From contig JACCXN010000014.1 of the NCBI GenBank assembly GCA_013696965.1, positions 1 to 53,969 of the forward strand: a stretch of 53,969 bases of DNA, written 5' to 3'. This document shows, piece after piece, positions 38,844 to 40,967 of this stretch. Position 1 is the first letter of the stretch; every line of letters begins with the position of its first letter. Origin of the DNA: Bacteroidota bacterium (lineage in GTDB: Bacteria; Bacteroidota; Bacteroidia; JACCXN01). The notes below the pieces were generated by a model. It was given only the letters and a program-made list of their open reading frames with translations, was not told the origin of the DNA and did no database searches. The position numbers and the translations under genes are program-made.

Positions 38844-39440
38844 AAAAGAATATTTATATTAGCCATTTCAGGATTAAAGTTGGAAACAATTTAACCCAAT
38901 ACGCTAACAACACTTCAAACAGGTAATTGGACAGGACTGTAAAGACTTGGAAAATTCAATAAACCTTTTGTATTTAGCAGCTGAATTTCTTTTCTATTTA
39001 TTTAAAAAATAAATATTTTCTATGCGCCTATTGTTTTTCACTTGAATTTCTTTTCTCTAACTTAAAGAAAAAGTTTTCTGGAGGTGCATTAAAAAATATT
39101 TAGAAAGTGAGTGATGCGGAAATTGCTTTTTTTAAATAAGGCCAAATATTTTTATGCGTATTTTCTATGCGCCTTTTTTTTTTCAGTTAAATTTCTTTTC
39201 TCCTATTTAAAGAAAAAGATTTTTTCAAGGTGTTTTTATAAGAAAATATCCTTGTAGAAAAGGGTGAAGGAGAAATCACTTGTTTTTAAATAAGGCCAAA
39301 TATTTTATGTATTAAAAACACGATTTGCTTTTTTAACAGATTTTAAAAAAAAATTGTTTTTAAATCTGTTTCAGTTTTTCGACAAATGAATTAGCAATAA
39401 AAATGTTAAAGATTTAAGAACAAGTGAAAACTTTTTCTGT
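38844..39440. other. Repeat-containing gap
   Basis: No gene seen. Most of it is taken up by the tandem repeat at 39015-39309; the rest is AT-rich. Confidence 0.5.
39015..39309. repeat. Two tandem copies of a 145-bp repeat
   Basis: Copy 1 (39015-39159) and copy 2 (39160-39309) start ATTTTCTATGCGCC and end TAAGGCCAAATATTTT. In each, AATTTCTTTTCTC and TTAAAGAAAAAG lie about 35 bases in, and the middle has diverged. Within a copy, TTTCTTT and AAAGAAA stretches can form a hairpin. No frame runs through; function unknown. Confidence 0.7.
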
Positions 39441-40183
39441 TCAAAAGGAATAATTTCCATTGTTGTCATATGAAAATTTCAGTTCTTTTTTGTCTTGTTC
39501 AAACCTGTCAAATCCAATCTTTAAATTGGCCCAAAAGTAGAGCAATTCAGGATTGTTCTTATACTTTGTTTTGTTTGTATTAAAATTCTGATCCGTCATT
39601 TTAAATGGAAAAATGTAAACAGGAATTCGTAATTGGCCATTGTTTCTTGCTTGAATAGCAAACAAATAGATTTCCTTGATTTTATCATCTGTCATTGGAA
39701 GACAACCTATTGTTACACATGAACCATGAATAAAAATATCTCCCCCAAGATTAGTTGAATTGCTTTTTTTCTTGTCGGCTTGATTTGGATAATTTATTCC
39801 AAGTGACAAATAAAAATTACTAACAGGATTGTATCTGTCTATATGATAAAATCCTTCGGGCACCTGAAAATCGCCTTGTTTTCTTTTTGGACCCAATACT
39901 CCAGAACTTGCACAAATACCATAGGCTGAAATTTTTTTATAGGATGATTCATTCTTTTTTTGGCGTAAATTTCAAGGGTTTGTTCTTCTTTAAAGGCTGT
40001 TGCTAATATGTTTAACTCCCCAGGATTTATGCCACTTCCATTTAATTTTTCTGTTATAACATTTTGCTTTTCAGTAAATGCTGTTTTTACCCGAACAAAC
40101 TTTTTTTGCTCACTTAAAAAATCTGTGTAAAAAGGAAAAGCTGTAAAAAGTATAGTTAATAGAAGTATGAATGTGCTTTTCAT
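39441..40183 (-). pseudogene. L,D-transpeptidase gene with one frameshift
   Basis: Two overlapping frames: 40183-39839 (signal peptide, then about 55 residues) and the end part 39896-39441. The end part carries the YafK-type L,D-transpeptidase core: GPKRKQGDFQVPEGFY, SLGINYPN, and GGDIFIHGSCVTIGCLPM with the catalytic cysteine and the HG motif. Joining them at the seven-A run (plus strand T-run 39955-39961) by one added A restores KNESSYKKISAYGICASSG, the expected strand before GPKRK. The restored protein has about 247 residues and would crosslink peptidoglycan or attach proteins to it. Error, slippage or mutation cannot be separated here. Confidence 0.82.
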
Positions 40184-40523
40184 ATGTATCTAATTTGTTT
40201 TTTAACTGTCATACCGATTTATCGGGAGCCATGTTATTCATTAGCGTTTGTGAACGCTTCGTGCAGGCTATTACATAAATATAAAAGAGTCTTTTTTATT
40301 TTCAAAAATCGGTTTAATTTCAAATTTAAAAATGTTTTTAATAATTTATTCCATCCCTTACTTTTTATTTATTTTAAGTGGCATGGTTTTTCTGTTTTTT
40401 TAATTAAAACAGTTTAAATAAAAAAATGGAGTTATGAAATAGCCATGCACGAACCGTTCACAACGCTAATGAATATAACATGGCTTTACCATATGACAGT
40501 TGAAAAACAAATAGATACATATG
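40181..40523. repeat. Long inverted repeat between divergent genes
   Basis: The left arm (40181-40279) and right arm (40431-40523) are near-complements over about 90 bases, with a few indels and mismatches. Both arms run up to and include the start codon of the gene beside them (L,D-transpeptidase on the left, coiled-coil protein on the right), so the two genes have the same leader. The 151-base centre is unique and AT-rich. Inside the right arm AGCCATG/CATGGCT (40441-40485) forms a hairpin. Possible readings: invertible promoter, duplicated 5' leader, or MITE-like element. Confidence 0.85.
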
Positions 40524-40967
40524 AAAAAATTAAAATTCTTATCCCCAATATTAACCCTGTTATTTGTTTTTCTTATTTCAACACTTACCGCACAGGATAA
40601 TAAAACCAAGCAAGAAACTGACGACAACAAACAAGTACCTGAAACAAAATTTGAGGTATTTGTTGATTCTGTTCAAAGAAAAATGGACCAGGTGGATAGC
40701 GAAATAGCACGAATTGAAAAACAAATATCAGATGCATTTAAAGATGAACAATACAAACAGGCAATAAGGGAGCTTGATGAAAATCAAAGAGAACTAAGAA
40801 GAGTAGTAACTCAATATAATCGAGCAGTAGAAGCGGGCATTGAGCAGGAATCAAAAGAGTTGGCAGACAAAATAAACATTCTGATGGATGATATTGAATC
40901 AGATTTGAAACAATTAAGAAACAACACGAACCAGGAAAATAGTGAAGAAAAAAGCTTTCCTGATTAA
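40521..40967 (+). CDS. Secreted coiled-coil protein
   Basis: 148 residues, signal peptide ending STLTAQD. The rest is a long acidic coiled coil (about 45-140) with heptad-like spacing of Val, Ile and Leu, such as DSEIARIEKQISDAF. No enzyme motif. Its leader is an inverted copy of that of the L,D-transpeptidase gene, so the two are probably controlled together. Function unknown. Confidence 0.75.
   Translation: MKKLKFLSPILTLLFVFLISTLTAQDNKTKQETDDNKQVPETKFEVFVDSVQRKMDQVDSEIARIEKQISDAFKDEQYKQAIRELDENQRELRRVVTQYNRAVEAGIEQESKELADKINILMDDIESDLKQLRNNTNQENSEEKSFPD

Follow-up and report, generated by a model that had tools for sequence, protein, structure and literature searches.

The window analysed here, a 53,969-nucleotide stretch of contig JACCXN010000014.1 from a Bacteroidota bacterium (assembly GCA_013696965.1), contains two divergent genes, encoding an L,D-transpeptidase and a secreted coiled-coil protein, that appear to be preceded by one and the same leader, arranged as the two arms of an inverted repeat. 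How did a divergent gene pair come to share it? A sequence-only reading of this DNA had proposed an invertible promoter, with a MITE-like origin or duplication of a leader as further possibilities. Very probably, a short non-coding mobile element that rebuilds the start codons of the genes it enters has inserted here twice, independently, each insertion giving one arm.

Two element copies at the divergent gene pair

Both arms are present where the sequence-only reading had placed them and either one ends, as it had claimed, at the start codon of a divergent gene (ATGAAA on both sides; Table 1). They are less alike than the near-identity it had reported: arm-to-arm identity is 85% with several indels, and the arms belong to two different sub-types, the left one with the CCCGATAAATCGG hairpin and the right one with the short form TTTACCATATGAC. 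The unique centre is confirmed, its length being 157 bases and not 151. Both arms are complete elements without a promoter of their own, and the nearest relatives of either lie elsewhere in the genome, the opposite arm ranking only 21st or 33rd. As they differ in sub-type and their best-matching copies are found at other sites, the two are to be read as two insertions and not as an inverted duplication. A right end reading ...AGATACATATGAA is private to the two window copies and absent from all other aligned copies, which hints that the arms underwent local gene conversion or once exchanged sequence.

The TAAATTTG box lies 45 bp before the left copy and is oriented towards the L,D-transpeptidase gene. 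The gene is split into two frames in this assembly, where an A-run near 39955 differs in length by one base; the cause may be an assembly error, a pseudogene or slippage. Imperfect repeats of ~125 bp (TTTTCTATGCGCCT...AAATAAGGCCAAATATTTT), unrelated to the element, occupy positions ~38980-39330 of the window, upstream of the locus.

Table 1. Coordinates of the two element copies, their ends and the neighbouring genes in the window.
Feature	Position	Strand	Remark
Left element copy	40179..40276	-	97-98 bp type, CCCGAT/ATCGG hairpin
Left copy, right end (ATGAA)	40183-40179	-	L,D-transpeptidase gene starts here
Left copy, left end (ATGTAATAGCC)	40276-40266	-	
Right element copy	40434..40525	+	Short 92-bp type
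Right copy, left end (ATGAAATAGCC)	40434-40444	+	
Right copy, right end (CATATGAA)	40518-40525	+	Coiled-coil gene starts here
Unique centre	40277..40433		157 bp between the copies; original divergent intergenic region
TAAATTTG	40321..40328	-	Fits the -7 box of Bacteroidota (TAnnTTTG), by consensus only
L,D-transpeptidase (YkuD) gene	39441..40183	-	Signal peptide; start codon formed by the right end of the left copy
Secreted coiled-coil protein gene	40521..40967	+	148 aa; start codon formed by the right end of the right copy
ATGAAATAG	40434..40442	+	Ex-start codon, now a Met-Lys-stop mini-ORF

Further copies of the arm, for which the sequence-only reading had advised a search, proved to be numerous. 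The left arm matches 87 places in its own genome (86 besides itself), with E values down to 1e-31. The 15-mer of the left end, with at most one mismatch, occurs 120 times in the source genome and 46 times in nzgw115 (G048), a MAG of another family that served as second genome for the counts; the reversed pattern, used as a control, occurs 0 times and once, respectively. The element is non-coding and usually ~90-105 bp long, some copies being ~150 bp, and carriers hold from 1 to more than 100 copies. Units in the source genome stand singly or head to tail, in arrays of 1-6 copies, and several contigs of this genome terminate within such arrays. Three sub-types are found there: one of ~98 bp with the CCCGATAAATCGGG hairpin, one of ~89 bp with CCATATGAC and one of ~147 bp, which carries an extra 54 bp (AATGCTTTAGCATTCTTGAGTTCCTTAAAGGAAAAATTAAAAACGAATAAAT) before its right end (L033, L034, L038, L042, L043, L054 and L065). 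The most degenerate, distal units of arrays are often of the long sub-type, which may therefore be ancestral; an age polarity with older units distal is not significant over all arrays (22 vs 18). Tandem growth could in part reflect recombination instead of insertion. A TPP riboswitch scoring above the Rfam cut-off is located near one array (L047 1328-1425, minus strand).

Insertion 3′ of ATGAA and empty sites

When flanks are joined, the junctions follow a constant order of unique upstream DNA, ATGAA, the element from AT(AGCC)... to ...CATATGAA, and downstream DNA. The element enters directly 3′ of ATGAA, with TATGAA preferred in the source genome; the target pentamer remains on the left side, and its exact counterpart on the right side is apparently brought along by the element. 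The clean sites (32 in the source genome and 33 in nzgw115) were selected by TGAA at the left end, which is present at 65/65; A precedes TGAA in 59 of them and T precedes that A in 54. The base before ATGAA is T in 30/32 sites of the source genome and 24/33 sites of nzgw115. ATGAA flanks the element on both sides, always as the same sequence, and a target duplication and a carried pentamer look identical. At genes the right-end ATG is the start even where AAT, AAC or AAG follows it, which argues that the ATGAA on the right is part of the element.

That the element moves is demonstrated by two empty sites. At the dnaN gene of G156, it lies between ATGAA and ATTTATTG; in the congener G093, whose upstream DNA is alike (...AAGGCTGGCGAATAAG-TATATTTGCTCAAAATTATCCA...) and whose DnaN N-terminus is 97% identical, the dnaN start is uninterrupted and no element is present. 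The second site is a Y1-transposase ORF of the source genome, broken after ...AATAAATGAA, the flanks of which rejoin in frame (KQLINE joined to IMENPQ); its paralogue L219 is uninterrupted at that point. The broken gene is RAYT-like (L215 1400-2000; G000:C42, ~47.6-48.2 kb), and the uninterrupted homologue, at G000:C105, runs towards the contig end.

In nzgw115, an inverted repeat that looks perfect (CCTCTCCC...CCAATGTCATTAAGTT / AACTTAAATTAATGACATTGG...GGGAGAGG) has one copy (L119/L295) in its loop, which is suggestive of insertion into a hairpin loop. Guide-to-target covariation between the -6 base and the right-end base was considered and set aside, being weak and not base-pairing-like; likewise, the TATGAA preference between sub-types does not fit a simple guide-pairing rule.

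The right end coincides with the start of a downstream ORF, counted if of 60 aa or more, at 16/32 sites in the source genome, 23/33 in nzgw115 and 92/119 in other genomes. Start codons account for 12.5% of all TATGAA sites in the source genome and 9.4% in nzgw115. Against non-coding TATGAA sites only, where they account for 6/18 and 23/81, the excess at element sites is clear in nzgw115 and modest in the source genome. Host genes are ordinary ones and include those for DnaN (dnaN), PGK (pgk), NuoA (nuoA), L36 (rpmJ), GcvH, RidA, an FMN-binding (NqrC-like) protein and proteins predicted to be secreted from their signal peptides, a number of these names having been given by inspection alone. For DnaN and L36 the Pfam alignment begins at residue 1, so that the right-end starts of these two genes are native. 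Some copies lie inside genes, interrupting them, or in gene-free places.

Insertion 3′ of ATGAA at a gene start leaves the host promoter upstream of the element and converts the former start to a brief upstream ORF that usually reads Met-Lys-stop, the element supplying its own A-rich initiation region and start codon and the host protein staying unchanged. Insertion elsewhere in a gene interrupts that gene. Every new right end is a fresh target, which fits the head-to-tail arrays. Start codons and non-coding DNA are the only places where an insertion leaves proteins as they were, and this is presumably why copies build up there.

Probable leader position, hairpins and spread of the family

The TAnnTTTG motif occurs upstream of the left end at 23/142 sites, against a shuffle mean of 5.6 (maximum 12) and 6 on the other strand. 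It usually lies 20-35 nt upstream of the left end and falls within the element in 4/142, which suggests that at least some copies reside within transcribed 5′ leaders. The former start codon then reads ATGAAATAG, Met-Lys-stop, and in the other genomes a stop stands at that codon in 76/119 sites (TAG 65, TAA 6, TGA 5); the mini-ORF ends within the element at 117/119.

Covariation supports two stems. In alignment A2, an independent MAFFT alignment not fitted to the structure model, 10 double changes are seen against 1.8 in shuffled data (0/500), and in A3, which was fitted to that model, 60 against 12.6; in the two-genome alignment A1 covariation is not significant, the signal being clear only across genera. 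The outer stem, GCCATG/CATGGC, begins 3 bases from the left junction, and the right-end hairpin, CATATG...CATATG, contains the start codon and shows the compensatory forms CATCTG/CAGATG, CATACG/CGTATG and CATGTG/CACATG. Not every copy can form the start-codon hairpin, since the long sub-type of the source genome has no CATATG inside it. Both the mini-ORF and pairing of the hairpin with CAUAUG around the start codon may damp or regulate translation, a putative role. At an orthologous epimerase gene (L313/L378 vs L379; G007 and G089), the inner hairpin of orthologous copies is wholly different, TCACGCC/GGCGTGA in one and other letters in the other, with the remainder conserved; gene conversion between copies is a possible cause.

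These properties raise the question of whether the arm is instead a host-owned regulatory leader, now mainly a cis-regulatory 5′ UTR that would control translation by way of the mini-ORF and the start-codon hairpin, its start-codon copies being kept by selection as a regulon. In keeping with this, the share of start codons exceeds the non-coding TATGAA background (16/32 vs 6/18; 23/33 vs 23/81), the covarying hairpin includes the start codon, any of the three stops may follow the former start with the mini-ORF nearly always ending in the element, and ridA, pyrC and a fumarylacetoacetase-like gene recur across genera. However, the host genes have no common function, and with some 200 sites sampled chance alone should give about this much recurrence. 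Moreover, close relatives differ in presence of the element, as at dnaN, and copies are also found in genes and gene-free places and range widely in number. A regulatory leader seems rather unlikely.

A covariance model built from 24 cross-genus copies detects the family in 50/247 Bacteroidia genomes and 26/135 genera, and a DNA query matches 36/395 Bacteroidia genomes. When the model was applied to a phylum-wide draw, 20/296 genomes were positive, with one weak match outside Bacteroidia. Rfam 15 gives no match on the element coordinates above chance, the phages and plasmids searched contain no element match, and in viral contigs 17-mer matches are at chance level and the best model E value is 0.68. 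No description of the family was found in the literature searched, a coverage outside which most subscription journals fall. The element family is real, widespread and apparently undescribed.

More tentatively, the mobile family may be class-wide, with gene starts serving as safe landing sites and with leader, mini-ORF and hairpin setting translation. If true, the element would be a self-inserting translational control module. On the favoured reading itself, the element would be a selfish DNA that enters a gene without harm to the protein, by choosing the start codon and rebuilding it. A large, apparently unannotated family of mobile DNA would then separate the promoter from the coding sequence in essential as well as ordinary genes of roughly one-fifth of the sampled Bacteroidia genomes, and many mRNAs would gain hairpins and small upstream ORFs. 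This would bear on translation initiation in the Bacteroidota, which are largely without Shine-Dalgarno signals. The element also bears on start-codon annotation and on assembly, and filled and empty pairs such as that at dnaN are natural material for tests of its effect.

Relation to known elements and candidate moving enzyme

What stands of the MITE-like origin is that the arm is a mobile repeat. For a classical MITE moved by a DDE transposase, the ATGAA on both sides would formally equal a 5-bp target duplication. Yet the ends are not inverted copies of each other (ATAGCC... vs ...TATACAT, or ...TATACATATGAA in the alignments), so that the terminal inverted repeats of DDE-type MITEs are absent, and one fixed duplicated sequence would be unusual for DDE enzymes; this origin is quite improbable.

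An invertible promoter would have the arms as recombination sites between which the centre flips from one gene to the other, and the similar 90-bp inverted arms, together with the private AGATAC variant common to both, are what it would draw upon. It is very improbable: rather than unique inverted sites, each arm is a full copy of a dispersed element, the two differ in sub-type and are closer to copies elsewhere, and most genomic copies are single or in direct tandem. As the arms contain the start codons, flipping would swap the promoter region only. A leader duplicated locally and then inverted, without any mobile element, would account for two like leaders adjoining each other, but this is next to inconceivable given ~120 left ends genome-wide, family members in other genera and the empty sites.

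The mobile element favoured here displays features of IS200-IS605 elements and PATEs, namely subterminal palindromes, a fixed target and no terminal inverted repeats. PATEs are palindrome-associated transposable elements of Haloquadratum that derive from IS605-type transposons and outnumber the transposons (PMC3119063). Like them, the element is short, non-coding, present in many copies and without terminal inverted repeats, and has subterminal palindromes; whereas PATE ends match resident IS605-type transposons, no such parent was found for the present element. Two PATE features are present in the element and the defining link to an IS605-type parent is absent. A search of the PATE paper for 'start codon' brought up neither start-codon targeting nor a rebuilt start (PMC3119063). 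Like IS200/IS605 elements, it has asymmetric ends with hairpins and inserts 3′ of a short, invariant target that is retained on its left side; unlike them, it contains no internal transposase or TnpB, and its left and right flank pentamers are identical.

REP elements are 20-50 nt long, preceded by GTAG and mostly intergenic (PMC8266576, PMC3116915). REPs and REPINs resemble the element as small hairpin-forming bacterial repeats thought to be moved in trans by Y1 enzymes (RAYT/TnpAREP), from which it differs in its length of ~95 bp, its fixed ATGAA target and the absence of GTAG. The HEARO/OMEGA RNA of IscB/IsrB has the TAM NTGA (PMC9581776), and the start of the element likewise adjoins an ATGA-type motif. 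HEARO/IscB, considered for this ATGA target, was rejected: the element measures 95 bp against about 200-300, and neither an RF02033 match nor an IscB protein was found in either of the two genomes. The element acts as a small non-autonomous mobile repeat and is not filed as MITE, REP or HEARO.

The lack of inverted terminal repeats, the subterminal hairpins and the fixed 5-base left target together point, with less certainty, to single-strand transposition of the Y1/IS200-like kind, in which a Y1 (IS200/IS605- or RAYT-like) transposase would move the single-stranded element in trans. Y1 transposase genes number 12 in the source genome and 7 in nzgw115. No autonomous element copy was found, and the ends do not flank the Y1 loci examined, a part of the full set; the one copy met at these loci is the insertion within a Y1 gene. 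Nor does Y1 presence separate element-positive from element-negative genomes: Y1 genes are found as well where no element was detected, and G214, which has copies, gives no Y1 match. In the two richest genomes TnpB gave only sub-threshold matches. Among 40 sources around Y1 genes the element appears in just two, G007 and G089, a pairing discarded as evidence of a link because it is one orthologous locus at which the element belongs to the next gene. The RAYT-like Y1 genes of these two genomes stand amid an unrelated palindrome family (ACCCCGACAGGGGT, CCACCGATGCAATCGGTGG; L378 500-900 and L379 500-900), a REP-type system of its own.
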